DNA from: Micromonospora mirobrigensis
Lineage (GTDB): Bacteria; Actinomycetota; Actinomycetes; Mycobacteriales; Micromonosporaceae
Reading direction: 5' to 3'
Length of the DNA stretch: 64,000 bases
Assembly: GCF_900091555.1 (NCBI RefSeq)
Contig: NZ_FMCX01000005.1
Coordinates: forward strand, 124,001 to 188,000
The position numbers and the translations under genes are program-made. The notes under the pieces are model-generated. The model was not told where the DNA came from. It did not search any database and saw nothing but the letters and a program-made list of their open reading frames with translations. This document shows, in pieces, positions 9,992 to 34,808 of the stretch. Positions within the stretch are counted from its first letter, which is position 1. Every line of letters starts with the position of its first letter.

Positions 9992-10135
9992 GTGCCCGCC
10001 GGTGACGGACTGCCCCCGGGGCAGCGCCCCGCCGAGCTGACCCGCTTCGGCCTGCCGTGGTTCGCCGGGGTGGAACCGGCGCCGCCGGCCCGGCCGGTGG
10101 TCACCGTCGGCGGCGTCGTACGCCGACCGACCCAG
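9992..10135 (+). pseudogene. Truncated sulfite-oxidase-like molybdopterin oxidoreductase (N-terminal remnant)
   Basis: Two bases after the TetR stop, a GTG opens a frame with good third-position GC for about 47 codons. It contains LPPGQRPAELTRFGLPWF and later PPARPVVTVGGVVRRPT. The LPPGQR...RFG...P...V.V.G pattern is how short (about 200-residue) bacterial sulfite-oxidase-like molybdopterin proteins begin. The frame then continues as unrelated low-information sequence antisense to the next gene, and no cofactor-binding domain follows. I read it as a decayed or deleted gene that was once co-transcribed with the regulator. The assignment rests on a short stretch. Confidence 0.5.
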
Positions 10136-10158
10136 GGCCCTGGTCGGCAACGCCCAGG

Positions 10159-19946: not shown

Positions 19947-20186
19947 CTGTTCCCCCTCAACCGTGTTCGGGCGCAGCGGCATACCCACCGATCGCGCTGC
20001 TACGCCCCCGGGCCCCGAACGCTTCCGACGGCGACGTCCGCCCTGGTCCGGCGGGGTGCGGCAGGACTCCTCCGACGGCCGGCGGGTAGGCGGGGGCAGG
20101 GCCGAACGCGCCACGTCCGGCGCACCCGGGGGATTCGCCGGCAGCCCGGCGGGGCATCATCGGCGGCGATGATCGACAGGAGCGGT

Positions 20187-21971
20187 ATGGGCGGGGCGGT
20201 GGACGAGCCGGACGGCACGTCCGTGGTCGACCACGCCCTGCTGTTCCGGTCCACCCCCACGCCGTACCTGGTGCTCAGCCCCGACCTGACCATCGTCGAG
20301 GTGAACGAGGCGTACCTGTGGGCGACCGGACGCACCCGCGCGGAGCTGCTCGGCCGGCACGTCTTCGACGCGTTCCCCGGCAACCCGGACAGCTCCGACG
20401 CCAGCGGGGTGCCCAACCTGCGGGCCTCCCTGATCCGGGCCCGGGACACCGGCCGTGCCGACACGATGGCGTTGCAGCGCTATGACATCCCCGACGGCGC
20501 CGGCGGCTTCCTCACCCGGCACTGGAGCCCGATGAACGTGCCGGTACGCGACGAGGCCGGGCGCACCGTGCTGCTCGTGCACCGGGTGGAGGACGTCACC
20601 GACTTCGTCCGGGAGCGGGACCGCAGCCGCGCCGACCGGGCCCGGGGCGAGGACCTGCGCCGCCGGATGGAGGAGGCCGAGCTCGACCTGTACGCCCGGG
20701 CCCGGGAGCTGCGCGCGGCGCTGGAGTCGCAGGGCGTGGCGACCCGGCAGCTGACCACGCTGGTGGAGCTGGCCGGCCAGCTCGCCGGCTGCGAGACCGT
20801 GGCCGCGCTGACCGAGGTGGTGATCGACCGGGGGCTGGCCGCGTTGGGGGCGGACGGGGGAGCGGTGGGCGTCCGGGACCAGGGCCGGATCCGGCTGACT
20901 CTGACCGACAGCCTCGGCGGGCGCACCCGGGAGCGGTACGCGGACCTGCCGTTGGACGGACCGCTGCCGGCCTGTACGGCGGCCCGGCGCGACGAGGTCG
21001 TCCTGCTGCCCGACCGCGCCACGACCCTGGCCTGGTCGGACGAGATGGCCGACGTGCTCGACGACACCGGGCTGCGGCGGTGGGTCGCCCTGCCGCTGCG
21101 GGTCGGTGACCGGCTGCTCGGATCGCTGACCGTGGGCTGGCGCGACGACGCGCCGTTCCGGCCCCGCGAGGTGGAGCTGCTGGGCGCGTTCGCCGCGCAG
21201 TGCGCGCAGACCCTGGACCGGATCCGGATCCACCAGGCCCAGCGGCGCACCTCCGAGACCCTGCAACGCAGCCTGCTCACCGAGCCGCCGCCGACGGCCG
21301 GGCTGACCGTGGCGGTCCGCTACCACCCGGCCGCCGAGCACGAGCAGGTCGGCGGCGACTGGTACGACGCCTTCCCGGCCTCGGACGGGGCCGCCACCCT
21401 GGTGATCGGCGACGTGACCGGGCACGACCGGCGGGCGCTGGCCGCGATGGCGCAGATCCGCAACACGCTGCGCGGCGTCGCGTACCTGATGGGTGCGCCG
21501 CCGGCCGGGAGCCTGGCCGCGCTGGAACGGGTGCTGGCCGGCCTGAAGGTCGAGGCGCTCGCCTCGACGGTGCTGGTCCACCTCTGGGCGCCCGGCCAGG
21601 TCGGTGGCGACCCGCGGCGGGCCCGCCTGGTCTGGTGCAACGCCGGCCATCCACCGCCGGTGCTGATCGGCCCGGACGGCGCCGCCCGGCTGCTGAGCCG
21701 GCCGGTGGACCCGATGGTGGGGCTGGGGATCGGCCGGTCGCGCCGTGACCACCAGCTGCTGCTCGACCCGGGCAGCACGCTGGTGCTCTACACCGACGGG
21801 CTGGTGGAGCGGCGGCACGAGGTGCTGGACGAGGGGCTGGAGCGCCTGCGGGCGGCCGCCGCCCGTCTGCACCACCTGCCGGTCGAGGAGTTCGGCGACG
21901 CCCTGCTGGCCGAGCTGGCCGACGTGCCGAGCGACGACATCGCCCTGCTGGCGGTCCGGGTCACCGGCTGA
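20187..21971 (+). CDS. PAS-GAF-PP2C (SpoIIE-type) phosphatase
   Basis: A 594-residue protein. The ATG at 20187 follows AGGAGCGGT, so it is preferred to the in-frame ATG at 20169. Residues about 20-130 form a PAS domain (YLVLSPDLTIVEVNEAYLWATGR, then NVPVRDEAGRTVLLVHRVEDV). A coiled-coil linker runs from about 140 to 185 (RADRARGEDLRRRMEEAELDL). A GAF domain spans about 190-350. The C-terminal PP2C SpoIIE domain has GGDWYDAF, VIGDVTGHDRRA and the closing SDDIALLAVRV with the metal-binding Asp pair. These proteins dephosphorylate STAS antagonists and free sigma factors. No sigma factor is adjacent, so the target is unknown. It probably acts in the same general network as the MEDS pair near 1 kb. 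Confidence 0.93.
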   Translation: MGGAVDEPDGTSVVDHALLFRSTPTPYLVLSPDLTIVEVNEAYLWATGRTRAELLGRHVFDAFPGNPDSSDASGVPNLRASLIRARDTGRADTMALQRYDIPDGAGGFLTRHWSPMNVPVRDEAGRTVLLVHRVEDVTDFVRERDRSRADRARGEDLRRRMEEAELDLYARARELRAALESQGVATRQLTTLVELAGQLAGCETVAALTEVVIDRGLAALGADGGAVGVRDQGRIRLTLTDSLGGRTRERYADLPLDGPLPACTAARRDEVVLLPDRATTLAWSDEMADVLDDTGLRRWVALPLRVGDRLLGSLTVGWRDDAPFRPREVELLGAFAAQCAQTLDRIRIHQAQRRTSETLQRSLLTEPPPTAGLTVAVRYHPAAEHEQVGGDWYDAFPASDGAATLVIGDVTGHDRRALAAMAQIRNTLRGVAYLMGAPPAGSLAALERVLAGLKVEALASTVLVHLWAPGQVGGDPRRARLVWCNAGHPPPVLIGPDGAARLLSRPVDPMVGLGIGRSRRDHQLLLDPGSTLVLYTDGLVERRHEVLDEGLERLRAAAARLHHLPVEEFGDALLAELADVPSDDIALLAVRVTG

Positions 21972-21992: not shown

Positions 21993-22856
21993 TCAGCGTT
22001 TCGGCAGGGTCGCCGCGAAGGCGGCCACCCGGGCGGCCACCGGGCCGGCGGCGCGGACCCAGGTGAAGTGGTCCAGCGGGGTGCCCGCCTCGTCGACGGT
22101 GTACCGGTCCCGGGTCACCGGAGCGGCGGTCAGCTTCGCGCAGAGCGCGTCCATGGTGGGGTGCGGGGTGTACTGGTCGTCGTCGACGCTGACCGCCAGC
22201 ACCGGCGTCCGTACGCCTGCCACCGCCGCCTCCGTGTCCACCCCGTCCAGCCGGGGGAACCGCCCGGTCCGCGCGGTGTGCGCCCAGTCCCGGATCACCC
22301 CGCGGGCCTGCCGTCCGCCGAAACCCCAGCCCGGCCAGACCCGCAGCGCCGCGGCCACCGCCGCGATCCCCTGGGTGTACGGCAGCACCGCCCAGCCGCG
22401 TACGCCCGGGTAGTGCCGCCAGTACGGGATGCCGACCGCCACCAGGGCCAGCCCGTCGACCCGGCCGGTGTCGTGCAGGGCGAGGTGCAGCAGGGCGGCC
22501 TGCCCGCCGAGCGAGTGGCCGAGCAGCAGGGTGGTCCGCCCGTCCAGGGTGGGCTTGAGCGCGTCGAGCACCGCGCCGACGTCGGTGGCCAGTTCGGCGT
22601 AGCCGTACCGGCAGGCGCGGCCGGGGCGGGGGGTGCTGGCGCCGGTGCCGCGCAGGTCGGCGACGACCACGGCCAGCCCGGCCGCGCGCAGCGCCGCCGC
22701 GAACGGCCGGTAGTAGCGGGCCCGGACCCCCATCGCCGGCCAGATCACCACCACCGGCGCGCCGGTGACACCCTCGGGCTCGGGATAGCGCTGGACGCCG
22801 ATCCGCGCCCCGTCGACGTCGACGAACTCCTGCCGGTACTCCGGTTCCCCGTTCAC
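21993..22856 (-). CDS. Alpha/beta hydrolase
   Basis: A 287-residue protein starting at GTG 22856. The fold is clear: VVIWPAMGVRARYYRPFAAAL, AVVVADLRGTGAS, nucleophile elbow LLGHSLGGQAALLHLAL (Gly-x-Ser-x-Gly), acidic residue near VSVDDDQYTPHPTMDAL, and the closing His in TPLDHFTWVRAAG. It has no signal peptide. It starts 22 bases after the last gene of the heptose operon and may be the tail of that transcript, or separate. The substrate is unknown. Confidence 0.85.
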   Translation of the reverse strand: MNGEPEYRQEFVDVDGARIGVQRYPEPEGVTGAPVVVIWPAMGVRARYYRPFAAALRAAGLAVVVADLRGTGASTPRPGRACRYGYAELATDVGAVLDALKPTLDGRTTLLLGHSLGGQAALLHLALHDTGRVDGLALVAVGIPYWRHYPGVRGWAVLPYTQGIAAVAAALRVWPGWGFGGRQARGVIRDWAHTARTGRFPRLDGVDTEAAVAGVRTPVLAVSVDDDQYTPHPTMDALCAKLTAAPVTRDRYTVDEAGTPLDHFTWVRAAGPVAARVAAFAATLPKR

Positions 22857-22878: not shown

Positions 22879-23853
22879 CTACCCGTGGGTAGCCACGGGG
22901 TCGGGTCGGCGGGGCCGTACCGGCCGGTGCGCGGTGGCCCGGTCGACCCGCTCCACCGCGGCCAGCACGGCCGGCACGTCCAGCGCGGCGAGCGCCGGGT
23001 GCACGCCGCCGTCGGCGGCCGGCGGGCGCGGGCCCACCCAGAGCGCCTGGTGCCGGGGCCGGTCCGGTGGCGGCCCCCACTGCGCGGGGGAGACCGGGCC
23101 GAAGAGCAGGACCGACGGGCACTCGTACGCGGTGGCCAGGTGCCCGATGCCGGTGTCGCCGCTGACCACCAGCCGGCCGTGGGCGACCAGCGCGGCCAGC
23201 TCACCGACGTCGGTGCGGCCGGCGAGCACCGCCGCGTCGGGCAGTCCCGCCCGGCGGGCCACCTCGACGGCGACCGGCCGTTCGGCGGCGGACCCGGTGA
23301 CCACCACCCGGTGCCCCCGCCGGGTCAGCTCCCGGGCCAGCGCCGCGAACCGGTCGGCCGGCCAGCGGCGCTGCACCGCCTTGGCCCCCGGGTGCACGAC
23401 GGTCACCCCGATGGGCAGCCCGGCCGGGTCCGGCCGGCGCAGCGCCAGGTCGGTGCGGTCGGCGGGGATCCCATACCAGGCGAGCAGCCGGCACCAGCGG
23501 TCCACCTCGTGCTCCTCGGCGAACCAGACCGGCCCGTCGTGATGCCCGGCGTCGGGGTTGGCGAAGGCGAGCATCCGGCGTGGTCGGGTGGTGCTGAGCA
23601 TCCGGTGCGACTGCGGGCCCCTGCCGTGCAGGTTGACGGCGATCTGCGGTGCCGGCCCGGTCCAGGGCAGCGGTCCGAGGCCGTCGGCGTGGATCCGCCG
23701 GTCGATGCCGCCGACCAGGTCGACCAGGGGGTCGAGCCAGGCCGGCGCGACCAGGGCGAGTTCCTGCTCCGGGTACGCGGTGCGCAGGGCGCGCAGCGCG
23801 GGGACCCCGGTGGCGAGGTCCCCGACGCCGAGCGCCCGCAGGACGAGGATCAC
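22879..23853 (-). CDS. GT9 (heptosyltransferase-like) glycosyltransferase
   Basis: A 324-residue protein starting at GTG 23853, which overlaps the stop of the SDR gene (GTGA). GT9 features: LVLRALGVGDLATGVPALRALR at the start, PGAKAVQRRWPADRFAALA in the middle, then VSGDTGIGHLATAYECPSVLLFGPVSPAQWGPPP, the ADP-heptose-binding region (GDTGIGHLA) of the LPS heptosyltransferase family. It is the last core gene of the heptose locus. The acceptor is unknown; since this is a Gram-positive, it cannot be LPS core. Confidence 0.87.
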   Translation of the reverse strand: MILVLRALGVGDLATGVPALRALRTAYPEQELALVAPAWLDPLVDLVGGIDRRIHADGLGPLPWTGPAPQIAVNLHGRGPQSHRMLSTTRPRRMLAFANPDAGHHDGPVWFAEEHEVDRWCRLLAWYGIPADRTDLALRRPDPAGLPIGVTVVHPGAKAVQRRWPADRFAALARELTRRGHRVVVTGSAAERPVAVEVARRAGLPDAAVLAGRTDVGELAALVAHGRLVVSGDTGIGHLATAYECPSVLLFGPVSPAQWGPPPDRPRHQALWVGPRPPAADGGVHPALAALDVPAVLAAVERVDRATAHRPVRPRRPDPVATHG

Positions 23854-24542
23854 GGGTACGACGACTCCTGCTCGGCGCAGACCACCATCTCCCGCACGGC
23901 GCAGCCGGCCGGCTGGGACAGCGCGAACATCACGGCCGCGGCAGTGTCGGCCGGATCGTTGAGGACCGCGTCCGGACCAGGCTTGTACGCCGCGTCCCGA
24001 TCGTCGAAGAACGCGGTACGCATCCCGCCCGGAATCAGCAGCGTGACGCCGACGGTCCCGGCGAGTTCGGCGGCGAGGGCGCGGGTGAAGCCGACCACCC
24101 CGAACTTCGCCGCGCAGTACGCGGTGGCGTCACTGACCGCCTTGACGCCCAACGTCGACGCCACCGTCACCACCGTGCCGTGCGAACGCTCCAGGTAGGG
24201 CACCGCCGCCCGGACCACCGCGGCCGTACCGAGCAGGTTGATCGCGACGATCCGGTCCCAGGTCACCCCCTCGACGTCGGCCAGCTTCCCCGGCACGTCC
24301 ATCCCGGCGGCGGTCACCACCCCGTCCAGCCCGCCGGCCTGCTCGGCCAGCTGCCGGGTGGCCTCCTCGGCGGCCCGGGTGTTCGCCAGGTCGCACTCCA
24401 GCCACGGCACCCCGTCGGCCGGCGCCTGCCGGTCCAGCACGTATGGTCGCCCGCCGGCCTTGGCCACCGCGGCCACCACGGCCGCCCCCAGCCCACTCGA
24501 CCCACCGGTCACCAGAACCGCCGAACCGTTGAGATCCTTCAT
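23850..24542 (-). CDS. Short-chain dehydrogenase/reductase (classical SDR)
   Basis: A 230-residue protein, ATG at 24542, two bases after the stop of HldE. The cofactor motif is TGGSSGLGAAV, then VVTVASTLG and the catalytic YCAAK (Tyr-x-x-x-Lys), followed by VTLLIPGGMRTAF. This is a classical short SDR, not the extended type of the ADP-heptose 6-epimerase HldD, so it is more likely to reduce or oxidise a sugar or an intermediate than to do that epimerisation. It is inside the heptose operon with tight spacing; its substrate is not readable. Confidence 0.86.
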   Translation of the reverse strand: MKDLNGSAVLVTGGSSGLGAAVVAAVAKAGGRPYVLDRQAPADGVPWLECDLANTRAAEEATRQLAEQAGGLDGVVTAAGMDVPGKLADVEGVTWDRIVAINLLGTAAVVRAAVPYLERSHGTVVTVASTLGVKAVSDATAYCAAKFGVVGFTRALAAELAGTVGVTLLIPGGMRTAFFDDRDAAYKPGPDAVLNDPADTAAAVMFALSQPAGCAVREMVVCAEQESSYP

Positions 24543-24544
24543 GC

Positions 24545-25957
24545 TTACACCGCTCCCTTGACGAGGTGCAGGCCGCGCTGACGCGCGGCGGAGATGGTGC
24601 CGGTGGTGGACCGGCCGGTCAGGTAGGGGACGGTGACGACCCGCCCGCCCCAGCGGTGGATCAGCTCGGCCTCGGGCAGCTCCGGGGCGTCCTCCCCGGC
24701 GTAGTCGCCGCCCTTGACCCAGACGTCGGGGCGCAGCCGGGCCAGCACCTGGTGCGGGGTGGGCTGGTCGAAGACCAGCACCGCGTCCACGCAGTCCAGG
24801 GCGGCCAGCAGCCGCGCCCGGTCGGCCTCCGGGTTGACCGGGCGCTCCGGGCCCTTGAGCCCGCGTACGCTGCGGTCGGAGTTGAGGCAGACCACCAGGC
24901 AGTCGCCGAGTCGGCGGGCCGCCCTCAGGGTGGCCAGGTGCCCGGCGTGCAGGATGTCGAAGCAGCCGCCGGTGGCGACGACGGTCCCGCCGTCGGCGCG
25001 TACCCTCGCCACCAGCTCCTCGGCGGTGCGGGCCGCGACCGGCGGGGCCGACCCGTCCCGCTCCCGGTGCAGGCCGGCCGCCCCACCCGCCGCCACGTAC
25101 GCCGACGCCGCGGCCACCGCGGCGCCGACCGCCTCGCCGGTCGAGGCGCCGTCGCCCAGCGCCAGGGCGGCGGTGGCCGCGAACCGGTCACCGGCGCCGC
25201 AGGTGTCCTCGACGTGCTCCAAGGCGTCCGGGGGCGGTACGACCAGCGGGGTGGGCCCGCCGTGGCAGAGCACCGCGCCGTCCGGGCCCATGGTCACCGC
25301 CACCGCGCCCGCCCGCCAGCGTCGACGCAGCTCGTGGCCGGCGCGGGTCGCCGTGGACAGCGCCGAGCCGCCACCGGCGTCCCCGGTGAGCTGGCGCAGC
25401 TCGCCGAGGTTCGGGGTGGCCAGCCGCGTGCCCGGCACCGCGGCCGGGCCGCGCGGGTGCGGATCCCAGACCACCGGCGCCGACGCACCGGCCAGCGCCG
25501 TGCGCAGGGTGGGCTGGCGCAGCAGCCCGCGGCCGTAGTCGCTGACCAGCACGGCCCGGGCCCGGGCCAGCAGCTCCAGCACCGCCTCCGGTGGCTCGCC
25601 GGGGGCCTGCGGGTCGCCGCCCCGGTCCAGCCGCAGCAGGGTCTGCCCGCCGGAGCGCAGCCGGATCTTCTCGGCGGTCGCGCCGGGCAGGTGCAGTGGA
25701 TAGACCTCCACCCCGGCGCCGGCCAGCAGCTCCGCCAGGCGGGCCCCGCCGGCGTCGTCGGCCAGCGCGGTGACCAGCGCCACCTCGGTGTGCTGCGCGG
25801 CGGCCAGCAGCGCGGCCAGCCCGGCGCCGCCCGGCCGGTCGGTGGCGTGCCGCTCGTCGAGCACCGGCACCGGGGCGTCCGGGCAGACCCGGCTGACCGC
25901 GCCGCTGACGTCCCGGTCCAGCAGCGCGTCACCGACCACCACCAGCGGCCCGGTCAC
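24545..25957 (-). CDS. hldE: HldE: D-beta-D-heptose 7-phosphate kinase / heptose 1-phosphate adenylyltransferase
   Basis: A 470-residue bifunctional protein. It starts at GTG 25957, overlapping the upstream stop (GTGA). Residues about 1-310 are a PfkB/ribokinase-type kinase: VCPDAPVPVLDERHATDRPGG, VLVSDYGRGLL, and the catalytic DTCGAGDRFAATAAL. Residues about 335-470 are a cytidylyltransferase-fold adenylyltransferase: GGCFDILHAGHLATL (HxGH), LNSDRSVRGLKGPERP, and the terminal TTGTISAARQR. The order kinase then transferase matches E. coli HldE. It converts D-glycero-D-manno-heptose 7-P to the 1,7-bisphosphate and, after GmhB removes the 7-phosphate, makes ADP-heptose. GmhA is directly upstream and the GmhB fusion is in the same operon. 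Confidence 0.93.
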   Translation of the reverse strand: MTGPLVVVGDALLDRDVSGAVSRVCPDAPVPVLDERHATDRPGGAGLAALLAAAQHTEVALVTALADDAGGARLAELLAGAGVEVYPLHLPGATAEKIRLRSGGQTLLRLDRGGDPQAPGEPPEAVLELLARARAVLVSDYGRGLLRQPTLRTALAGASAPVVWDPHPRGPAAVPGTRLATPNLGELRQLTGDAGGGSALSTATRAGHELRRRWRAGAVAVTMGPDGAVLCHGGPTPLVVPPPDALEHVEDTCGAGDRFAATAALALGDGASTGEAVGAAVAAASAYVAAGGAAGLHRERDGSAPPVAARTAEELVARVRADGGTVVATGGCFDILHAGHLATLRAARRLGDCLVVCLNSDRSVRGLKGPERPVNPEADRARLLAALDCVDAVLVFDQPTPHQVLARLRPDVWVKGGDYAGEDAPELPEAELIHRWGGRVVTVPYLTGRSTTGTISAARQRGLHLVKGAV

Positions 25958-26829
25958 GGCTCCACCCACCCGGTGCCGGTCGTGCCGTGGCCGTTGTGGG
26001 CGTGGCCGTTGTGGGCGGGGCCGTCCGGGGTCGCTCCGTCCAGGCCGGCGCCGCCGGTGCGGCGTCCGTGGCCGTTGGCCGGCCGGCCGATCCGGCCGCC
26101 CACCACGCCGGCGAGGACGTGCTCGTCCCAGCCGGTCCCGTCCCGGCCCACCGGCCTCCCGACGGCGGAGGCGACCGTACGCGGCGCCGGGGCGGCGGCC
26201 ATTCCTGGCAGGCTGCGGACCAGCGGCAACGCCTGGTCCACGTACTCGCAGAGCAGGTGCGAGGAGACCAGGTGCAGCTCCTGCACCACCTGGCTGTCCG
26301 GCGACGGCACCGCCAGCACGTCGTCGCAGAGCTCGGCCAGCGGGTTGGGGGCGGGACCGGTGAACGCCCAGGTGCGCAGGCCCGCGTCCCGGCCGGCGTG
26401 GGCGGCGGTGAGCAGGTTGGGGCTGGTGCCGCTGGTGGACAGGAGCAGGAGGATGTCGCCGGGTCGGCCGTGGGCGCGGACCTGGCGGGCGAAGACCTCG
26501 TCGTAGCCGTAGTCGTTGCCGATGGCGGTCATGGCGCTGGTTTCGGCGTGCAGGGCGATGGCGGAGAGTGGTTCGCGGTCGTGGCGGAGTTTGCCGACGA
26601 GTTCGGCGGTGAGGTGTTGGGCCTCGGCGGCGCTGCCGCCGTTGCCGGCCACCAGCAGCCGCCCGCCGGCCACCAGGGTGCCCGCCAGCTCCCGGCCCCA
26701 GCGGGCGAGCAGCCCCTCGCACTCCCGGTAGGAGAGCAGCGCCTCCGCCAGGTGGGCCAGGTGCGCGTCGAGCACCGACGGTCCCCGTCCGCCGTCGGCC
26801 GGCCGGAGGTCCGGCGACTGCGCCGTCAT
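25954..26829 (-). CDS. gmhA: GmhA: sedoheptulose 7-phosphate isomerase (SIS domain)
   Basis: A 291-residue protein, ATG at 26829, overlapping the GT4 stop by 4 nt (ATGA). Residues about 25-215 form a SIS fold: LLVAGNGGSAAEAQHLTAEL, AIGNDYGYDEVFARQV, LLLSTSGTSPNLL and the active-site helix QVVQELHLVSSHLLCEYVD. This fits GmhA, which converts sedoheptulose 7-P to D-glycero-D-manno-heptose 7-P. About 80 extra C-terminal residues are low complexity and His/Asn/Gly-rich (HNGHAHNGHG), not a usual part of GmhA. It is coupled to hldE downstream. Confidence 0.9.
   Translation of the reverse strand: MTAQSPDLRPADGGRGPSVLDAHLAHLAEALLSYRECEGLLARWGRELAGTLVAGGRLLVAGNGGSAAEAQHLTAELVGKLRHDREPLSAIALHAETSAMTAIGNDYGYDEVFARQVRAHGRPGDILLLLSTSGTSPNLLTAAHAGRDAGLRTWAFTGPAPNPLAELCDDVLAVPSPDSQVVQELHLVSSHLLCEYVDQALPLVRSLPGMAAAPAPRTVASAVGRPVGRDGTGWDEHVLAGVVGGRIGRPANGHGRRTGGAGLDGATPDGPAHNGHAHNGHGTTGTGWVEP
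25985..26022. repeat. Imperfect GGCCGTTGTGGGCG tandem repeat in the GmhA tail
   Basis: The unit GTGGCCGTTGTGGGCG occurs twice in tandem and trails into a third, partial copy. In the coding frame it gives the HNGHAHNGHG tail. The tail could bind a divalent metal or be a neutral expansion. Confidence 0.6.
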
Positions 26830-28046
26830 CCGGCGACCACCCGGGTCGGCCGGCGCACCGCGGTCACCTCGCCGTAGACCTCGGCGAGCTTCTCCGCCGT
26901 GGCGGCCCAGGAGTAGCACCGCCGGGCCCGGTCCAGCGCCGCGGTGGCGTACCCGAAGCGGCGGATCCGGTCGGTGAGCAGGCCCTGGACGGCGGTGCCC
27001 AGCGCCCGCGGGTCGCGGGCCGGGACCAGGTCGCCGGTGCGGCCGGGCACCACCGTGTCGGTGAGGCCACCGACCGCGGTGCCGATCACCGGGATGCCGC
27101 AGGCCATCGCCTCCAGCGGGGTGAGGCCGAACGGCTCGTACCAGGGGGCGGCGACCAGCACGTCCGCCGACCGGTACCAGGCGCCCATCTCCTCGCGGGG
27201 GACCGCGCCGACCAGCCGCACCCGGTCGGCCATCCCGCAGGAGGCGGCCAGGGCCCGCAACCGCCGGGCGTACGGGTCGGACTCCAGCAGGCCCGCGGGG
27301 GGACCGCCGACCACCACGCACTCCGCGTCGGGTACGTGGGCCATCGCCCGGATGACCGTCTGGAAGCCCTTGCGTTCCACCAGCCGGCCGACGGTGAGGA
27401 TCCGGGCCCGTCCCGGCACCCGTTCGGCGGCCGGCCCGAGCGGGGTGAAGGTGTTCAGGTTCACCCCGGACGGGATGATCGTCATCCGGGAGCGGGGCAC
27501 CCCCATCCGGACCAGCTCGCCGACCTCGTCGCGGCACTGGGCGACCACCCGGTCGACCGAGCAGCCCAGCTCCCGCTCGTAGGCGACCCGGCGGGCCGGG
27601 CTGGTGTCCTGCACCCCCTGGTGCCGGCGCTTGACCGTGCCCAGCGCGTGGTACGTCTGCACCACCGGCACCCCGGTCCGCCCGCCGGCGCTCAGCGCGG
27701 CCAGCCCGCTCATCCAGAAGTGCGCGTGGATCACCTCGGGCGTCCAGTCGCCGCCCCGCCACCGCTCCACCAGCCAGTGGCTGAACTCCCGCATGTGCGG
27801 CAGCAGCTCGTCCTTGGCCAGCGGCTCCGCCGGTCCGGCCGGTACGTGCACCACGTCGAAGCCGTCCGGGGCGCGGACGGTGACCGGCAGGTCGGGGGCG
27901 TCGCGGCGGGTGTAGACCCGGACCTCGTGGCCGGCGTCCACCAGGGCGGCGGCCAGCTCCGCGACGTGGGTGTTCTGACCGCCCGCGTCCTCCCCGCCGA
28001 GGACGGCGAGCGGGCTGGCGTGCTCCGAGATCAGCGCGACGCGCAT
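26826..28046 (-). CDS. GT4-family glycosyltransferase
   Basis: A 406-residue protein, ATG at 28046, inside the last 16 bases of the upstream gene, so translation is coupled. GT-B layout: EHASPLAVLGGEDAGGQNTHVAELAAAL at the N-terminus (the ADAGGQ loop resembles sucrose-phosphate-synthase/MshA-type transferases), PEVIHAHFWMSGLA, then PSGVNLNTFTP, ILTVGRLVERKGFQ, and the donor-site EPFGLTPLEAMACGIPVIGTAVGG with its Glu-x7-Glu motif. It probably adds a sugar from a UDP/GDP/ADP donor. It is placed between the other transferase and gmhA. Confidence 0.9.
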   Translation of the reverse strand: MRVALISEHASPLAVLGGEDAGGQNTHVAELAAALVDAGHEVRVYTRRDAPDLPVTVRAPDGFDVVHVPAGPAEPLAKDELLPHMREFSHWLVERWRGGDWTPEVIHAHFWMSGLAALSAGGRTGVPVVQTYHALGTVKRRHQGVQDTSPARRVAYERELGCSVDRVVAQCRDEVGELVRMGVPRSRMTIIPSGVNLNTFTPLGPAAERVPGRARILTVGRLVERKGFQTVIRAMAHVPDAECVVVGGPPAGLLESDPYARRLRALAASCGMADRVRLVGAVPREEMGAWYRSADVLVAAPWYEPFGLTPLEAMACGIPVIGTAVGGLTDTVVPGRTGDLVPARDPRALGTAVQGLLTDRIRRFGYATAALDRARRCYSWAATAEKLAEVYGEVTAVRRPTRVVAG

Positions 28047-29017
28047 ACTTCCTCCTCCAGCAGCCGGTCCCAGTCGGCGAGGAAACGTTCCAGGCCGTAG
28101 CGCTCCCGGGCCGCCGCCCGGGCCTGCGCGCCCGTGCGGGCGGCCAGCGACCGGTCCTCGACGAACCGCCGCGCGCCGTCGCGCAGGACGTCGATCCGGG
28201 TGGACAGGACGCCGGCCGGTGGCGGCACCGCCACCACGGCCTCGGTGGTGGCCAGCGCGACCACCGGCATGCCGATGGACATGGCCTCGATCAGGCTCAG
28301 CCCGAGCGAGGTCCACCGGCACAGGTGCAGGTACGCCCGCCGCCGGGCCACCTCCTCGTGCATCCGGTCCTGCGGCAGGTCGTCGTACCCGGTAACCGGG
28401 TGGGCGGTGGGCCCGCAGCGTTCGGCGAGGGCGGCCGGCAGCCCGGCCACCCCCATGCCGAAGACGTCCAGCGGGGCGACCTGCGCGAACCGTGGCATCA
28501 GGTCGGTGCCGGTGACCCGCCAGCGGCGGACCGGCTCGTTGGTGACCACGGCGAGCCGGTCCAGCTCGCCGGTCCACTCGACCCGGGGCGGGACGATGCC
28601 GTGCTCGACGACGGCGGTGCGGGTGCCGCCGTTGTCCCAGAACAGCTCGTTGAAGTGGGTGACGTGGACCAGCAGCAGGTCGTCCCGGTCGGCCATCGGG
28701 TGGCGGGTGTTGGGCACGTCGCCCTTGGGGGTGTTGTGCTCGACGTAGATCGCCGGCAGGTCCCGGCCGGGCCGCCGGCCGAGCCACTGCTCGGCCAGTT
28801 CCAGCTCGTCGGGGCGTTGCAGGATCACCAGGTCCACGTCGGCGCCGGCCAGTTCCTGCGGGGTCACCTCGACGGCGTTCTCCGGCCACGGATAGGTCCG
28901 CGCCCGGCCCAGCCCGTACGGGCCGCGGTCGGGGGTGACCGGCACCAGGTAGCGGTGCGGGCCGTGCACGAAGGACGTCGTCCAGGAGCCGTGCACGTGC
29001 CAGAGCAGGACGTTCAT
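28031..29017 (-). CDS. Glycosyltransferase (GT4-like)
   Basis: A 328-residue protein, ATG at 29017 behind GAGGAGAGAC. The N-terminus MNVLLWHVHGSWTTSFVHG, then VEHNTPKGDVPNTRHPM, the donor-side sequence GMGVAGLPAALAERCG, and the donor loop WTSLGLSLIEAMSIGMPVVALATTE (again a Glu-x7-type motif) fit a GT-B transferase. The HG-S-W start recurs in actinobacterial operons of this type. The substrate is not known. It overlaps the next gene by 16 bases. Confidence 0.85.
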   Translation of the reverse strand: MNVLLWHVHGSWTTSFVHGPHRYLVPVTPDRGPYGLGRARTYPWPENAVEVTPQELAGADVDLVILQRPDELELAEQWLGRRPGRDLPAIYVEHNTPKGDVPNTRHPMADRDDLLLVHVTHFNELFWDNGGTRTAVVEHGIVPPRVEWTGELDRLAVVTNEPVRRWRVTGTDLMPRFAQVAPLDVFGMGVAGLPAALAERCGPTAHPVTGYDDLPQDRMHEEVARRRAYLHLCRWTSLGLSLIEAMSIGMPVVALATTEAVVAVPPPAGVLSTRIDVLRDGARRFVEDRSLAARTGAQARAAARERYGLERFLADWDRLLEEEVCASR

Positions 29018-29065
29018 GTCTCTCCTCACACGGGGGCGGTCGGTCGGGACGAGGGCGGGTGGGGC

Positions 29066-30634
29066 TCAGCCCGGGGGCGGCGCGAGCAGCCGGACGGCGT
29101 CGACCACCTGGGCGGGGTCGACGCCGGCCAGGCAGGGATGGTCGGGCACCGGGCAGCGGGCCGCCCGGGTGTCCCGGCAGGGCGCCCCGGCGTCGCCGAG
29201 CCGGACGGCGGGCACCCGGTAGGGCCCCCACTGCCCGTACGGCACGGTGGGCGCGAAGAGGCTGACCACCGGGGTGCCGACGGCGGCGGCGAGGTGGGCC
29301 GGGCCGGTGTTGCCGACCACCAGGCAGCGCGCCCCGGCGATGATCCCGGCCAGCCCGGCGAGGTCGGTCCGGCCGCCGAGGTCCTCGCCACCGGCGGCGG
29401 CGACCCTGGCCGTCAGCTCCCGTTCGCCGGGGCCGCCGGTGACCAGCACCCGGTGTCCGGCGGCGGTCAGCGCGGCGACGATGTCGGCGCAGCGCTGCGG
29501 CGGGCAGGCCCGGGCGGGCACCGACGCCCCGGGATGCACCACCACGTAGTCGCCCCCGTCGGTGTCGGTCACCGCGTCGTCGCGCAGCCGCAGCACCGGC
29601 TGGTCGTGGTCGGCGAGGGTGAAGCCGGCTGCGGCGGCGAGGGACAGGGCGCGTTCGGGCTCGGGTACGCCGACCGGCACGCGGTGGCGGACGTCGAGGA
29701 GGCTGCCCGGGTAGTCGTCGCTGACCGCGCTGATCCTCGGCACGCCGGCGATGCGCAGCAGCAGGGCCAGGGGGAGAGCCGACTGGTGGAAGGACGTGAA
29801 GATGATCGCCTCGTCGGCGCCGACCCGGGTGAGCCGGTCGGTGAGGCGGCCCATGTCATCGGGGTCGACCGGCTGCGGGTCGCCGTCGATCCAGGGCAGC
29901 CGCCACTCGATCAGTTCGTCGACGCCGGGCAGGAGGTCGGCGGCGGCGCGGCCGCGGGGTCCGCAGAGCAGGACGACCTTCCGGGCGCCGGCGGCGACGG
30001 CGCGGATGGCGGGCCCGGTGACCAGGACGTCTCCGGCGGAGTCGCTGCGGACGACCAGGACGGTGCCGGCCCGGTCCCGGCGGGGGGTGGTCGGGCGGAG
30101 GGCGTTCTGGCGGCGCAGGATCTCGGTGACGGCGGCGGGCAGGTCCCGGGCCACGTGCGGGGCGGCGGCGACCTCCTCCGGCCGGGTGACCGGGGTCGGC
30201 ACCAGCATCCCGGTGGCCCCGGCGGCCAGCGCGGCCGTCACGTCCCGGCCGATGTCGCCGACCAGCACGCAGCGGCGCGGATCGGTGCCCAGCGCCCGCG
30301 CGGCGGCGTGCACCATGCCGGGGGCGGGCTTGCGGCACGGGCAGCGGTCCTCGTCGTCGTGCGGGCAGACCTGCCAGTCGTCGAACGGGCCGAGCAGCTC
30401 CTCGATCCGGGCGTGCACCGCGTGCATCTGCGCGGCGGTGAAGTAGCCCCGGGCCAGGCCCGACTGGTTGGTCACCACACCCAGCCGCAGGCCGGCCGCG
30501 CGCAACCGGTCCAGCGCCTCGCGCACCCCGGGCAGCGGGCGCACCTTCTCCGGGTCACCGTTGTAGGGCACGTCCTCGACCAGCGTGCCGTCCCGGTCCA
30601 GCAGCACCGCGTCGTACAGCGGGGAGGTGGACAT
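29066..30634 (-). CDS. Fusion: GmhB-type heptose bisphosphate phosphatase + GT9 glycosyltransferase
   Basis: A 522-residue protein whose ATG overlaps the GT2 stop by one base (TGATG). Residues 1-185 are a HAD phosphatase of the HisB/GmhB type: LLDRDGTLVEDVPYNGDPEKV, TNQSGLARGYFT, and the zinc knuckle CPHDDEDRCPCRKPAPGM (Cys-Pro-His, Cys-x-Cys), then VGDIGRD. Residues about 195-522 are a GT9 domain: VLVVRSDSAGDVLVTGPAIRAV, VVHPGASVPARACPPQRC, VVGNTGPAHLAAAVGTPVVSLF. The first part would remove the C7 phosphate of heptose 1,7-bisphosphate and the second transfer the activated heptose. In most bacteria these are separate genes. Both halves have full length and intact motifs. Confidence 0.9.
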   Translation of the reverse strand: MSTSPLYDAVLLDRDGTLVEDVPYNGDPEKVRPLPGVREALDRLRAAGLRLGVVTNQSGLARGYFTAAQMHAVHARIEELLGPFDDWQVCPHDDEDRCPCRKPAPGMVHAAARALGTDPRRCVLVGDIGRDVTAALAAGATGMLVPTPVTRPEEVAAAPHVARDLPAAVTEILRRQNALRPTTPRRDRAGTVLVVRSDSAGDVLVTGPAIRAVAAGARKVVLLCGPRGRAAADLLPGVDELIEWRLPWIDGDPQPVDPDDMGRLTDRLTRVGADEAIIFTSFHQSALPLALLLRIAGVPRISAVSDDYPGSLLDVRHRVPVGVPEPERALSLAAAAGFTLADHDQPVLRLRDDAVTDTDGGDYVVVHPGASVPARACPPQRCADIVAALTAAGHRVLVTGGPGERELTARVAAAGGEDLGGRTDLAGLAGIIAGARCLVVGNTGPAHLAAAVGTPVVSLFAPTVPYGQWGPYRVPAVRLGDAGAPCRDTRAARCPVPDHPCLAGVDPAQVVDAVRLLAPPPG

Positions 30635-31656
30635 CAGCCCACCGCTCCCGGCCGGGCCGCACGCACCACGTCACCGGCGCCGACGGCGCGGGCCCGCCGC
30701 CAGCCGCGTACCCAGTGCGCCACCGCCAGCGGCGGGATCAGCGCGCTGGTCACCAGCATGGTGGCCAGCTCGTCGGCGGTGCGCGGGCCGGGCGCGATCC
30801 GGGCCCGGGCGAACTCCGCGGTGCCCGCCGCCCAGGCCGCCCCGGCGACGGCCGCCGCGACGGCCGGCCACCGGCGGCCGGTGGCCGCGCGCAGCCCGGC
30901 GGCGGCCAGCGCCACCGTGCCGGCCGCCGCGACCGCCACGTGCCGGGGTCGCCGGCCCGGCGGCAGCTCCAGTTCGCCGCGCCAGCGCGGCCCGTAGAGC
31001 CGGCGCAGCAGCGCGTCGTCGGCGTTGCCGCGCTGGGTGCGCAGGCTGATCCAGCGCCCCTCCGGGCGGACCGGATGGGTCACCCGCCGCCGGCCCCGGC
31101 GCAGCGCGAAGCCGGCCCGGCGGACCCGGTGGGCCAGCTCGGCGTCCTCCCGGTAGGCGCGGGGGAAGCGCTCGTCGAAGCCGCCCACGGCGGCCAGCGC
31201 CGACCGACGGTAGGCCATGTCCGCGGTGATCCAGGCGCCCTCGGCCAGCCCGGCGGTGCCGCGCTCCCAGTCGGTGGGGCGCCGGTCGGCGGGCAGCGGC
31301 ACCTCGACCACGCCCTGCACGCCGCCCACCCCCGCCGGCACGGCCAGGTCGTCGACCAGCCGCCGCGCCCAGTCCGGCGCCGGCACCACGTCGTCGTCGA
31401 GGAAGACCACCCAGGAGCCGCGGGCCGCCGCCGCGCCCAGGTTGCGGGCCGCCGCCGGGCCCGCGCCGCGCCCGGTCAGCACCTTCGTGTACGCGGCCAG
31501 CGCACCCGGCACCGCCAGCTCGCCGCCCTCGTGCCCACCCCGGTCGTCGACCAGCAGCACCTCCACCTCGGGCAGGGTGTCGAGCTGCCCGGCGAGGGCG
31601 TCGAGCAGCACGGCCAGGCTGGGCCGGCCGAGCGTCGGCACCACCACGCTGATCAC
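30634..31656 (-). CDS. GT2-family glycosyltransferase with a membrane tail
   Basis: A 340-residue protein, GTG start at 31656 overlapping the upstream stop (GTGA). The GT-A fold opens MISVVVPTLGRPSLAVLL, then LLVDDRGG and the metal motif VVFLDDDVVPAPDW, then FPRAYREDAELAHRVRRAGF (the ED motif of the acceptor/base region). After residue about 225 there are hydrophobic segments (HVAVAAAGTVALAAAGLRA, VAAAVAGAAWAAG, and MLVTSALIPPLAVAHWVRG) that could anchor it in the membrane. It probably starts or extends the glycan of this locus. Confidence 0.87.
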   Translation of the reverse strand: MISVVVPTLGRPSLAVLLDALAGQLDTLPEVEVLLVDDRGGHEGGELAVPGALAAYTKVLTGRGAGPAAARNLGAAAARGSWVVFLDDDVVPAPDWARRLVDDLAVPAGVGGVQGVVEVPLPADRRPTDWERGTAGLAEGAWITADMAYRRSALAAVGGFDERFPRAYREDAELAHRVRRAGFALRRGRRRVTHPVRPEGRWISLRTQRGNADDALLRRLYGPRWRGELELPPGRRPRHVAVAAAGTVALAAAGLRAATGRRWPAVAAAVAGAAWAAGTAEFARARIAPGPRTADELATMLVTSALIPPLAVAHWVRGWRRARAVGAGDVVRAARPGAVG

Positions 31657-33305
31657 CGGTCACCGGCCAGCGACCGGCGGTGCACCGCGAACGGGCCGAG
31701 GGCGAGCAGGTCCACCGGCGCGGAGCCGAACAGCTCCATCGCCTCGCGCGGGGTGTCGACCATCGGCCGGCCGGCGGTGTTCAGCGAGGTGTTCACCACC
31801 ACCGGCAGGCCGGTACGCCGCTCGAACTCGGCGAGCAGCTCGGCGACCAGCGGTTCGGTGTCGGTGTGCACGGTCTGCACCCGGGCGGTCCCGTCGACGT
31901 GGGTGACGGCCGGGATGCGGTCCCGCCACTGCGGCTTCACCTGGTGCACGAAGAGCATGTAGCGGCTCGGGTAGACCCCGTCGAAGATGTCGGCGAAGCG
32001 TTCCGCGCGGACCATCGGGGCGATCGGGCGGAACTGCTCCCTCCCCTTGACGTCGTTCATCCGCCGGGTGGTCTCCGGGTCGCCGGGGTGGGCCAGCAGC
32101 GACCGGTGACCCAGCGCCCGCGGGCCGTACTCGCTGCGCCCCTGGTACCAGGCGACGATGCCGTTGTCGGCGAGCACCCGGGCCGCCTCGGCGGCGATCG
32201 ACTCCGGCCTGGTGTACGGCAGCGCCGCCCGGCGCAGCTCCGCCTCCAGCTCCTCGTCCGACCAGCCTCGGCCCAGGTCCGCCCCGGTCATCGGGACCGA
32301 CCGGTCACCGAGGCCGGTGGCCACGTGCAGGGCGGCGCCCAGCGCCGTGCCCGAGTCGCCGGCGGCCGGCTGCACCCAGACGTCCCGGTACGGCCCCTCG
32401 GCGGCGATCCGCGCGTTGGCCACGCAGTTCAACGCCACCCCGCCGGCCATCGCCAGCGTCGACGGGCCACCGGCGGCGTCGTACAGCCAGCGGGACAGGT
32501 CGAGGATGACCTCCTCCAGCCGGGCCTGCACGCTGGCGGCCAGGTCGGCGTGCTCCTCGGTCAGCTCACCGTCGGGCGGGGTCGCCTTGGCCAGGCTCGC
32601 CCAGTCGATCCGGTCGACGTGGAAGCCACCCTCATCGGTGACGGTTACCAGCTCGCGCAGCAACCCGAGGTGCTTCGGCCGGCCGTACGAGGCCAGGGCC
32701 ATCACCTTGTACTCGTCGCTGGAGTGCATGAACCCGAGGTGCCGGGTCAGGTCCTCGTAGAGCAGGCCCAGCGAGTGCGGCAGCTCCTGGGAGTACAGCG
32801 ACGACAGCTGCCCGTCGCGGTAGACGCCGGACAGGTGGCTGGCCACCTCGCCGCGCCCGTCCAGGACCAGCACGGCGGTGTCGTCGCCGGCCGGTGGGGC
32901 GGCCAGCCCGGCCGAGGCGGCGTGCGCCACGTGGTGCGGTACGAAGTGGACCTTCTCCGGGTCGAGGCCGGGCAGGGCGGCGGCCAGGAACTGTGGCGCC
33001 CGCCGGGCGTAGTCGACCCGCAGCCAGTCCCACGGGTCGGCCAGGCCGAGGTCGCCTGCGTCGCGGCACAGCCCCGGATCGAAGGAGTACGCCACCGCGT
33101 CGATGCCGTCGACGTCCAGGCCGGCGGCGTCCAGGCACCAGGCGGCGGAGAGTTCGGGCAGTTCCCAGGCGGAGAAGGGCACCGGGCGCTTGCCGTGCTT
33201 GCGGCGGCTGAACCGTTCCTCTTCGGCGGCGGCCACCACCCGGCCGTCGACCACGACGGCGGCGGCGGGATCGTGGAAGATCGCGTTGATTCCGAGGACG
33301 CGCAT
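31653..33305 (-). CDS. Carbamoyltransferase (NodU/CmcH family)
   Basis: A 550-residue protein, ATG at 33305. The N-terminal Kae1-like half has LGINAIFHDPAAAVVVDG, AAEEERFSRRKHGKRP, the metal-binding VPHHVAHAASAG, and LDGRGEVASH; the C-terminal YrdC-like half has WYQGRSEYGPRALGHRSLLA, then VKGREQFRPIAPMV and NTSLNTAGRPMVDTP. Such enzymes transfer carbamoyl from carbamoyl phosphate through carbamoyladenylate onto a sugar or antibiotic hydroxyl. It is the first gene of the operon, so carbamoylation of the sugar is an obvious guess; the acceptor is not known. Confidence 0.93.
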   Translation of the reverse strand: MRVLGINAIFHDPAAAVVVDGRVVAAAEEERFSRRKHGKRPVPFSAWELPELSAAWCLDAAGLDVDGIDAVAYSFDPGLCRDAGDLGLADPWDWLRVDYARRAPQFLAAALPGLDPEKVHFVPHHVAHAASAGLAAPPAGDDTAVLVLDGRGEVASHLSGVYRDGQLSSLYSQELPHSLGLLYEDLTRHLGFMHSSDEYKVMALASYGRPKHLGLLRELVTVTDEGGFHVDRIDWASLAKATPPDGELTEEHADLAASVQARLEEVILDLSRWLYDAAGGPSTLAMAGGVALNCVANARIAAEGPYRDVWVQPAAGDSGTALGAALHVATGLGDRSVPMTGADLGRGWSDEELEAELRRAALPYTRPESIAAEAARVLADNGIVAWYQGRSEYGPRALGHRSLLAHPGDPETTRRMNDVKGREQFRPIAPMVRAERFADIFDGVYPSRYMLFVHQVKPQWRDRIPAVTHVDGTARVQTVHTDTEPLVAELLAEFERRTGLPVVVNTSLNTAGRPMVDTPREAMELFGSAPVDLLALGPFAVHRRSLAGDR

Positions 33306-33332
33306 GAGACGTTGCTACCCCCGGTTCGCCGA

Positions 33333-33362
33333 ACTAACCGGAGATCATCGACTTCTCGCCAA
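33333..33362 (-). promoter_or_regulatory. Candidate promoter of the heptose operon
   Basis: On the minus strand TTGGCG (33362-33357) and GTTAGT (33338-33333) are 18 bases apart, and the start codon of the first operon gene is 28 bases further on. It is the best sigma-70-like pair in the 137-bp gap to the flavohemoprotein gene, but by eye only. Confidence 0.4.
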
Positions 33363-33442: not shown

Positions 33443-34660
33443 TCAGACCCCGCCGCGCAGCATGCCCGGACCGAACACCTCGTACGCGATCCGCTCCACC
33501 GGTACGCCCCGGCGTAGCAGGCCGCCGCGGACCTGGTTCATGAACGGCAGCGGTCCGCAGAGGTGCACGTGGGCGTCGGGGGAGAGCGGGATCAGGTCGG
33601 GGTCGATCCGGCCGGTGGCCACCTCCGCGTCCGGGGTTTCCCGGTCGTCGGCGCCGGCCCGCTCGTACCAGAGCTTCAACCGGAGGTTGGGCAGCCGGGC
33701 GTGCAGCCGGGACAACTCGTCACGGTGGGCGTGCGCCGCCCCGTCCCGGTCGGCGTGGGCCAGCACCACCGGCCGTTGCGGGGCGGTGGCGGCGAGGTGT
33801 TCCAGCGCGGCCATCGCCGGGGTGAGGCCGATGCCGGCGCTGACCAGCACCAGCGGCCCGTCGCCGGTGACCGCGCTGACCTCGCCGAAGGGTGGGCTGA
33901 GCCGCAGCACGGCGCCGGGGGCGACCCGCTCGTGCAGGAAGGTGGAGACCAGGCCGTCGGGGGCGCCGCCCTCACCCCGGACCCGCTTGACGGTGATCCG
34001 CCAGTGGTCGGCGCCGGGGCGTCCGGAGAGGCTGTACTGCCGGATCTGCTGGCCGAGCCCTCCGTCCAGGTCGACCGCGACGGAGACGTACTGGCCGGGG
34101 GTGAAGCCGGGGACCGGGCCGCCGTCGGCCGGGACCAGGGTGAGCGAGACGACGTCGGTGGCCTCGACGGTCACCCCGGTGACCCGCCAGTCCCGCCAGA
34201 CCGACCCGCCCTCGGCGAGTCCCGCCTCGGTGTAGAGCCGGGCCTCCCGGGCGATCAGCTCGCAGGCCAGCAGCCAGTAGACCTCGTCCCAGGCGGCGGC
34301 GACCTCTCGCGTGACGGCGTCGCCGAGCACCTCGCCGATCGCGGCCATCAGGTGCCGCCCGACGATGGTGTACGAGGTGGCGGTGATACCCAACGACGCG
34401 TGCTTGTGCGCGATCCGGTCCAGGATCGGCCCCCAGGGCACGCCCGGTTCTCCGGTCAGGTGCGCGGCGTACGCCACGACGGCCCCGGCCAGCGCCGCCT
34501 GCTGCGCCCCGGTGGCCTGGTTGCCCCGGTTGAACAGGTCGAGCAGCTCCGGGTGGGCGGCGAACATCCTCCGGTAGAACCGGCCGGTGATCTGCTCGCC
34601 GTGCTCCTGCACCACGGGCAGGGTCGCGGTCACCACGGCCTTCGACGATTCCGACAGCAC
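33443..34660 (-). CDS. hmp: Flavohemoprotein, nitric oxide dioxygenase
   Basis: A 405-residue protein starting at GTG 34660 with GGAGG seven bases upstream. Residues about 1-135 are the globin: Tyr-B10 in GRFYRRMFAAHPELL and the proximal His in IAHKHASLGIT. Residues about 150-255 are the FAD domain with RQYSLSG (Arg-x-Tyr-Ser) and PGQYVSV. The rest is the NAD domain with SAGIGLTPAMAAL and HLCGPLPFMNQV. It oxidises NO to nitrate with O2 and NAD(P)H. An NsrR-type regulator is divergent from it, with a candidate operator between. Confidence 0.94.
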   Translation of the reverse strand: MLSESSKAVVTATLPVVQEHGEQITGRFYRRMFAAHPELLDLFNRGNQATGAQQAALAGAVVAYAAHLTGEPGVPWGPILDRIAHKHASLGITATSYTIVGRHLMAAIGEVLGDAVTREVAAAWDEVYWLLACELIAREARLYTEAGLAEGGSVWRDWRVTGVTVEATDVVSLTLVPADGGPVPGFTPGQYVSVAVDLDGGLGQQIRQYSLSGRPGADHWRITVKRVRGEGGAPDGLVSTFLHERVAPGAVLRLSPPFGEVSAVTGDGPLVLVSAGIGLTPAMAALEHLAATAPQRPVVLAHADRDGAAHAHRDELSRLHARLPNLRLKLWYERAGADDRETPDAEVATGRIDPDLIPLSPDAHVHLCGPLPFMNQVRGGLLRRGVPVERIAYEVFGPGMLRGGV

Positions 34661-34697
34661 GGCGTCCTCCTTCTGCGTTGCCTTCCGATCACACTTA

Positions 34698-34720
34698 AAC
34701 AGGAGTCCTGGATTCCTCTT
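34698..34720. promoter_or_regulatory. Candidate NsrR operator (23 bp)
   Basis: This stretch begins AACA and ends CTCTT around the perfect palindrome CAGGAGTCCTG (34700-34710). It lies 37 bases before the hmp start, near where its -10 would be (TTTAAG on the minus strand), and is the most AT-rich part of the shared region. The layout is like known NsrR sites of streptomycetes in length and ends, but no alignment was done. Confidence 0.5.
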
Positions 34721-34808
34721 CAGGGCCGAAGGTCCCGGGTCGGTTGTTGCGCAGGTCACGGGACCTCGGGCCCTGTCCGGCGACGGGCGGCGTGGCTAGG
34801 GTCGGGTC

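Follow-up and report, generated by a model that had tools for sequence, protein, structure and literature searches.

What would a Gram-positive bacterium make with genes resembling those for ADP-heptose? This question is raised by a nine-gene operon in a 64,000-nucleotide stretch of the genome of Micromonospora mirobrigensis, an actinobacterium of soil (assembly GCF_900091555.1, contig NZ_FMCX01000005.1, positions 124,001 to 188,000), referred to below as the window. Heptose is usually a building block of the Gram-negative outer membrane. Enzymes for nucleotide-activated heptoses (NDP-heptoses) are already known outside Gram-negatives (Tang 2024 Science, via excerpts of PMC11461863 and PMC11573728); their role for the producers outside lipopolysaccharide (LPS) is an open question in the excerpt of PMC11573728, which suggests conserved neighbours as a lead. 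Judged from its sequence, the operon belongs to an old biosynthetic module, of which it is one copy, and it is reasonably probable that this module is a stress-induced pathway in which ADP-heptose would be made and a carbamoylated heptose oligosaccharide or glycolipid assembled. To an initial annotation of the same stretch are added here a second copy of the operon, a probable xylose branch, a cross-phylum cluster and a conserved stress-type promoter.

Gene content and the heptose pathway

Nine genes were found on the minus strand, running from 33305 to 22879 in the order carbamoyltransferase (CarbT), GT2, GmhB-GT9, GTx, GT4, GmhA, HldE, SDR and GT9b (Table 1). Neighbouring genes overlap by 1-16 bases or are spaced by 2-36 bases, and the GC fraction at third codon positions is 0.92-0.97 across all nine. 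The nine-gene operon of the initial annotation was reproduced in coordinates, strand, tight packing and Pfam domains, and its inventory of two GT9 domains, two GT4-like proteins, a GT2, a carbamoyltransferase and an SDR was matched by Pfam as well, with GTx as the weaker GT4-like member.

Table 1. Features of the operon and its surroundings (positions in the window).
Feature	Position	Strand	Evidence or remark
Conserved box GAAGTCGATGATC, directly upstream of promoter	33343..33355	-	At most 1 mismatch, 5' of CarbT in 21/121 loci
Putative SigB/SigF-type promoter GGTTAG-N13-GGGTAG, 9 bases 5' of CarbT ATG	33315..33339	-	Conserved in Micromonospora
CarbT, O-carbamoyltransferase, operon gene 1	31653..33305	-	Pfam Carbam_trans_N 184, C 219 bits
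GT2 glycosyltransferase	30634..31656	-	Pfam Glycos_transf_2 58 bits
GmhB-like HAD phosphatase and GT9 domain, one fusion protein	29066..30634	-	Pfam HAD and Glyco_transf_9
GTx, GT-B-fold GT4-like glycosyltransferase, module signature gene	28031..29029	-	Pfam Glycos_transf_1 29 bits (weak)
GT4, related to sucrose-phosphate synthase (SPS) and MshA	26826..28046	-	NCBIfam MshA 251/462.5 bits
Tract near-identical to second operon copy (gene conversion)	26435..28434	-	Identity per 200 bases
GmhA, sedoheptulose-7-phosphate isomerase-like	25954..26829	-	Pfam SIS_2; PDB 2xbl phosphoheptose isomerase E 3.5e-42
HldE, heptose-7-phosphate kinase / heptose-1-phosphate nucleotidyltransferase-like, C-terminal GRSTT	24545..25957	-	Pfam PfkB and CTP_transf_like
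Classical SDR oxidoreductase, not HldD	23850..24542	-	Pfam adh_short 125 bits
GT9b, second heptosyltransferase-like protein	22879..23853	-	Pfam Glyco_transf_9 93.5 bits; PDB 1psw heptosyltransferase II E 2e-16
Alpha/beta hydrolase, after operon	21993..22856	-	17 loci, only Micromonospora operons near this one; 0/40 distant loci
PAS-GAF-SpoIIE phosphatase, convergent neighbour, association only	20169..21971	+	Pfam SpoIIE 130 bits

By Pfam and PDB matches, the isomerase, kinase, phosphatase and nucleotidyltransferase domains of the ADP-beta-D-manno-heptose pathway are all encoded in the operon. The GmhB-GT9 fusion protein matched D,D-heptose 1,7-bisphosphate phosphatase (4pnh, E 1e-24) and HisB (2fpr, E 1e-13), and of the two HldE domains one was related to heptose-7-phosphate kinase (4e84), the other to a putative cytidylyltransferase (5x9q). 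Both GT9 domains exceeded the Pfam Glyco_transf_9 gathering score of 22 (93.5 and 79.0 bits), and the GT9 part of the fusion matched heptosyltransferase I in the PDB (E about 5e-9). Counting against a firm assignment, no heptose-specific NCBIfam model reached its curated cut-off in the operon proteins (HldE: PRK11316, 273 against 521 bits; rfaE_dom_I, 134 against 345; rfaE_dom_II, 176 against 181.5, about 5 short; gmhA, 158 against 209 bits; GmhB: PRK08942, 130 against 178 bits), and the HAD domain passed only the broader histidinol-phosphatase-domain and HAD-IIIA models. Because of these scores the enzymes are labelled heptose-pathway-like and their activities are treated as predicted. The capacity for ADP-heptose claimed in the initial annotation thus stands as far as the four domain types occur together, and falls short at the heptose-specific cut-offs. 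Taken together, the operon would very likely make ADP-heptose, and with nearly the same confidence its GT9 enzymes are expected to transfer heptose into a glycoside.

The window HldE reads YLTGRSTT, with the arginine in place and Y at position 1, where the nucleotidyltransferase motif STTR5 is defined as (F/L)XXGRSTT (PMC11573728, excerpt). Among 122 HldE relatives, the GRSTT ending was present in 95, replaced by other residues in 9 and without a pattern match in 18. By the motif as given in excerpts of PMC11461863 and PMC11573728, this ending hints that CDP- or UDP-heptose may be made as well. An HldD-type 6-epimerase above cut-off was absent from the genome (15 epimerase-type matches, best 110 against 274.6 bits), and membership of an LPS-core pathway was rejected on this ground.

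CarbT fits the NodU/CmcH/TobZ carbamoyltransferases, with the N- and C-terminal Pfam domains both above cut-off, and its PDB matches were headed by 7xb6 (282 bits), followed by decarbamoylnovobiocin carbamoyltransferase, TobZ and GdmN; the product would probably be carbamoylated. The AlphaFold model of GTx has a GT-B fold (mean pLDDT 87.8), and Foldseek, at probability 1.0, matched it to TarM, BshA, SPS and further enzymes of the GT4 family. PDB matches of GT4 were 6kih (213 bits) and 3c4q/3c48 (189 bits). Hydrophobicity (KD-19) gave no membrane anchor for GT2 (maximum 1.69, against 1.81 for GTx and 1.77 for SDR), and as a membrane criterion it failed to discriminate among the operon proteins. 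The SDR is 36% identical to its B. multivorans homolog, with an E-[ST]-S-[YW]-P ending in both.

Distribution, second copy and a cross-phylum relative

Of 394 Actinomycetes genomes, 93 contained HldE relatives (E <= 1e-50), which spanned 45 of 137 genera. Loci of up to 20 kb each were taken from 40 genomes hand-picked across families from the better HldE matches. By tblastn, GmhB, GT9a and HldE were present in all 40 of these distant loci, GT4 in 39, GTx and GmhA in 37 each, GT2 in 29 and CarbT in 27, and by assignment of open reading frames (ORFs) SDR was present in 30 and GT9b in 33. Gene order and strand were shuffled among them, and GmhB and GT9 were frequently separate genes. A search for the gene order in other actinobacteria, proposed with the initial annotation, found HldE, GmhB and GT9 together throughout this sample. 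An aldehyde dehydrogenase occurred in 9 of the 40, of which 7 were without CarbT. In 80 named loci, chosen by HldE similarity, the genes present share order and strand, although many loci end at contig ends; carbamoyltransferase or GT2 was visible in 24 of the 80. On an HldE tree (75 rows) the presence of carbamoyltransferase or GT2 requires six changes, so there were several gains, losses or exchanges of this part.

Several points weigh against a strict reading of the module. The sampled loci are related and were hand-picked out of the 93 genomes, and the control regions used below were shorter (12 kb). A Streptomyces fungicidicus plasmid cluster has EPIM, CarbT, GT2, GT4, GmhA and HldE with no GT9 or GTx match in 25.6 kb, and beyond GTx a plasmid of Clavibacter shows only weak matches, one to GT9 and one to the epimerase. 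Among the titles and abstract beginnings listed in searches of the open-access literature, no earlier description of the module was found.

A gene of UDP-xylose-synthase type (UXS; its top PDB match, at 309 bits, was UDP-glucuronic acid decarboxylase 1, and the next family reached 121) accompanies 26 of the 27 CarbT operons outside Micromonosporaceae. Across the 40 distant loci, CarbT and UXS were both present in 26, both absent in 11 and discordant in 3 (Fisher p 4e-7, for loci that are not independent). At L186 (family f2) a UDP-glucose dehydrogenase gene comes next after the locus, and a gene of similar size stands there in L177, L179 and L194. Against a xylose branch in the window genome, a linked UXS was found in 0 of 81 Micromonosporaceae loci, and in this genome the homologs of UXS and GT2b lie apart from the operon, the former (56% identical) on another contig (C18). 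UDP-xylose is inferred as a second donor, less directly in the window genome than elsewhere, and the chances that the product contains xylose are evenly balanced.

A second operon (L009) was found in the same genome about 172 kb off; it has seven of the nine genes, lacking carbamoyltransferase and GT2. The two copies are 98-100% identical per 200 bases within a 2-kb tract that starts in the second half of GTx, spans GT4 and ends in GmhA, and 46-98% identical outside it. With the GT4 proteins of the other Micromonospora operons of its type, that of the window shares 70-74% identity (84% with the hybrid L079), compared with 75-92% for operons of the type that lacks carbamoyltransferase; the second operon is therefore the probable source of the tract in the window, with an assembly error as a possible alternative. 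These paralogous heptose operons (window 26435-28434 and L009 7430-15358) would represent recent gene conversion within one genome. L079, from Micromonospora sp. KC606, is a hybrid operon with carbamoyltransferase and GT2 ahead of genes of the other type. A third HldE-like gene of the genome (674 residues), with GT2 and GT9 nearby (locus L011, 4665-9022, on contig C7), was placed outside the module by its content; partial HldE matches of this kind recur in the family.

The module also has a relative in another phylum. All three Burkholderiaceae megaplasmid loci examined (B. multivorans NZ_CP020399, P. sprentiae NZ_CP017563 and B. cenocepacia NZ_CP091014; 30-33 kb each) carry homologs of the GmhB-like gene, two GT9, CarbT, GT2, GTx, GT4, GT2b and UXS, and within these 30-33 kb GmhA and HldE gave no match. 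Burkholderiaceae hosts make ADP-heptose for LPS, and because this supply would be at hand, GmhA and HldE would be dispensable in the cluster; the retention of a GmhB-like gene, although the LPS pathway should supply ADP-heptose, counts against this. Of ten Burkholderiaceae records with GTx, nine had a CarbT match within about 4 kb among the matches listed, and the carbamoyltransferases of the Burkholderiaceae loci were 45-47% identical to that of the window, against 38-40% for the next-best plasmid matches among the 40 of 143 records listed. Beside the three clusters, at L197 (6219-8963), L200 (5661-8351) and L230 (about 8041-10760), lies an ABC transporter of MsbA type that carries an additional C-terminal part; its score of 409 bits is under the MsbA cut-off of 602. 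Among the papers listed, none describes the Burkholderiaceae cluster in its title or abstract beginning.

Promoter, stress regulation and neighbouring genes

In the putative promoter upstream of CarbT, GGTTAG was found at constant spacing in 12 of 12 Micromonospora CarbT operons, and 12 of the 13 spacer positions vary; the alignment was anchored on GGGTA, which is hence invariant by construction. Compared with the SigB/SigF consensus GTTTAA-N12-14-GGG(A/T)A(A/T), the window promoter agrees at 4 of 6 and 5 of 6 positions, respectively, and it is more like the SigB consensus (as cited in an excerpt of PMC8346170) than the mycobacterial SigF consensus (PMC7693655, excerpt), though it resembles both. 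Two further promoter-like sites of SigB/SigF kind stand in the second operon type. A sigma-70 and terminator scan returned nothing.

In the 121 loci, no gene other than CarbT had the box GAAGTCGATGATC within 150 bases, and 9 more occurrences were not upstream of a gene; the 21 box-bearing CarbT loci include Actinoplanes. The same 13-base pattern, with at most one mismatch, was found at 50 places in the window genome, against 1 for a reversed control pattern. Narrow box and promoter occurred together only at this operon among 30 of the 50 places. In actinobacterial family f19, a palindrome GAGAAGCGCTTCTC lies 5' of CarbT in L184 and L193 (by eye also in L182 and L195), between GTTT/GTTC-like and GGTAG/AGTAG-like elements.

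SigB-like stress-sigma genes were present at 10 of the 40 distant loci and at 0 of 20 control regions, which were placed by hand, 12 kb each, in 20 of the same 40 genomes. A Pfam tally was made on random samples of proteins under 700 residues from 20 of the 40 loci (148 of 164 neighbour and 148 of 170 control proteins), in which sigma-70 regions were found in 5 of the 148 neighbour proteins and were absent from the 25 families listed for the 148 control proteins. Frankia CCI6_RS17915, annotated as 'ADP-heptose:LPS heptosyltransferase', is salt-induced according to an excerpt of PMC5563000.

Other counts speak against a general stress promoter. The 11 other Micromonosporaceae CarbT operons keep GGGTA (11/11), with GGTT in only 3 of 11. 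The strict pattern GTTT-N12-17-GGGTA was not enriched overall (6/135 against 63/733), and outside Micromonosporaceae three of four patterns were unenriched and the best one was mildly enriched (7/65 against 4/228). Nor is the promoter pattern by itself rare, with 2 matches in the window against 0.49 expected. A wider pattern matched 63 of 117 upstream regions against a shuffled mean of 1.6, in a set dominated by Micromonospora and with a pattern chosen after the earlier four. In the M. smegmatis SigF regulon, as far as covered by an excerpt of PMC4694148, heptose, heptosyl and carbamoyltransferase gave no match. Stress regulation of the operon in Micromonospora is still considered rather likely from these motifs and neighbours, at a confidence slightly lowered after the promoter recount in other genera.

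Upstream of the operon, at 33443-35240, an Rrf2-type regulator and a flavohaemoglobin are encoded, which may together respond to nitric oxide; the flavohaemoglobin gene, found in 6 loci only, was not adopted as an operon member.

Proposed product and comparison with known systems

In the proposed pathway, sedoheptulose 7-phosphate would be converted to ADP-heptose, the GT4 of SPS/MshA kind would probably prime a chain on a small acceptor, and the two GT9 enzymes would attach heptose. GTx and GT2 would then extend the chain; one of the sugars they add may be xylose, drawn from a UDP-xylose supply encoded elsewhere in the genome. The carbamoyltransferase would cap a hydroxyl. A SigB/SigF-type stress sigma factor would probably turn the operon on in Micromonospora. 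Gene content, conservation, the co-occurrence of UXS outside Micromonosporaceae and promoter conservation within Micromonospora are read directly from sequence, while every enzyme activity in this scheme is predicted, and so are the order of the sugars, the acceptor, the sigma factor and the role in the cell. The full combination, a general-stress-response glycan in the form of a carbamoylated heptose-xylose oligosaccharide, built from in-house ADP-heptose under SigB-type induction in many actinobacterial genera and shared with Burkholderiaceae that borrow the LPS heptose nucleotide, is offered tentatively.

The initial annotation had proposed a carbamoylated heptose glycan of the surface or a soluble heptoside, which holds in outline. 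A lipid- or wall-linked surface glycan falls only a little short of an even chance. The MsbA-like transporter adjoining all three Burkholderiaceae clusters is consistent with it, as are three genes that follow the unlinked UXS of the window genome and which we take to be LytR-CpsA-Psr ligases; opposed to it, the nine genes include, by Pfam, neither a transporter nor an initiator phosphoglycosyltransferase or Wzx/Wzy, actinobacterial clusters gave only matches of about 200-300 residues to the MsbA-like transporter, and GT4 is similar to enzymes with soluble acceptors. A soluble stress protectant, a heptoside or oligosaccharide like mycothiol or sucrose phosphate, is credible at a slightly lower grade: SPS and MshA are the best GT4 matches, the promoter is of stress type with sigma genes as neighbours, and a PIG-L deacetylase adjoins the three Burkholderiaceae clusters, but for a small solute four to five glycosyltransferase domains would be a large number, and the acceptor class of GT4 follows from similarity only.

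A secreted natural product of bleomycin or septacidin kind, with aglycone genes elsewhere, is improbable. Such clusters hold carbamoyltransferase or heptose genes, but in the window no ORF has the size of a nonribosomal peptide synthetase or polyketide synthase gene, no aglycone gene was evident among the selected neighbours scanned with Pfam (in line with the initial annotation) or recurrent among the sampled distant neighbours, and the module is spread across many genera and Burkholderiaceae. A bleomycin-type cluster was rejected on the ORF sizes and scanned neighbours, and the parallel drawn initially gives way to homologous clusters of other actinobacteria and Burkholderiaceae as the nearest found. 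It is likewise unlikely that the HldE and GmhA homologs use another sugar phosphate outside any heptose pathway, as the NCBIfam scores would allow, given that GmhA-, HldE-, GmhB- and GT9-type genes are kept together across distant loci and that Burkholderiaceae, with ADP-heptose from LPS, go without GmhA and HldE in the cluster.

If the general-stress-response glycan is real, heptose would have a role beyond the outer membrane, and stressed Gram-positives would hold a cytoplasmic NDP-heptose pool. NDP-heptoses are ALPK1 ligands, so their presence in Gram-positives would bear on innate sensing. For the role of NDP-heptose enzymes outside LPS, the module provides conserved neighbours, a testable regulator and predicted sugars, namely heptose, perhaps xylose, and a carbamoyl group.

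A close relative is on the Streptomyces sp. CA-256286 plasmid p65_CHABEC, where EPIM-CarbT-GT2-HAD-GT9-GTx-GT4-SIS-rfaE2-GT9 stand in a single row; it differs in a linked UXS-type gene and two GT2b genes, in the lack of SDR from the row, and in SigB/SigF, STAS, CBS and CsbD genes close by. The Burkholderiaceae cluster shares CarbT (47-48% identity), GT2 (38%), GTx (37%) and GT4 (43-46%) with the window and has SDR in two of three loci, and differs in the adjoining PIG-L deacetylase and MsbA-like transporter. Bleomycin and septacidin clusters involve sugar carbamoylation or ADP-heptose use; unlike the window operon, where none was seen, they have aglycone genes. Septacidin is given as a heptose user in an excerpt of PMC11461863. 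The Gram-negative LPS-core pathway has the same GmhA-HldE-GmhB-GT9 logic, whereas the window genome has no HldD over cut-off and the operon adds CarbT, GT4, GTx and SDR. In the LPS core of Pseudomonas aeruginosa, 7-O-carbamoyl heptose is a case of carbamoylation at the heptose part of a glycan (PMC7168646, excerpt), similar to the product proposed here; that glycan is LPS-linked.

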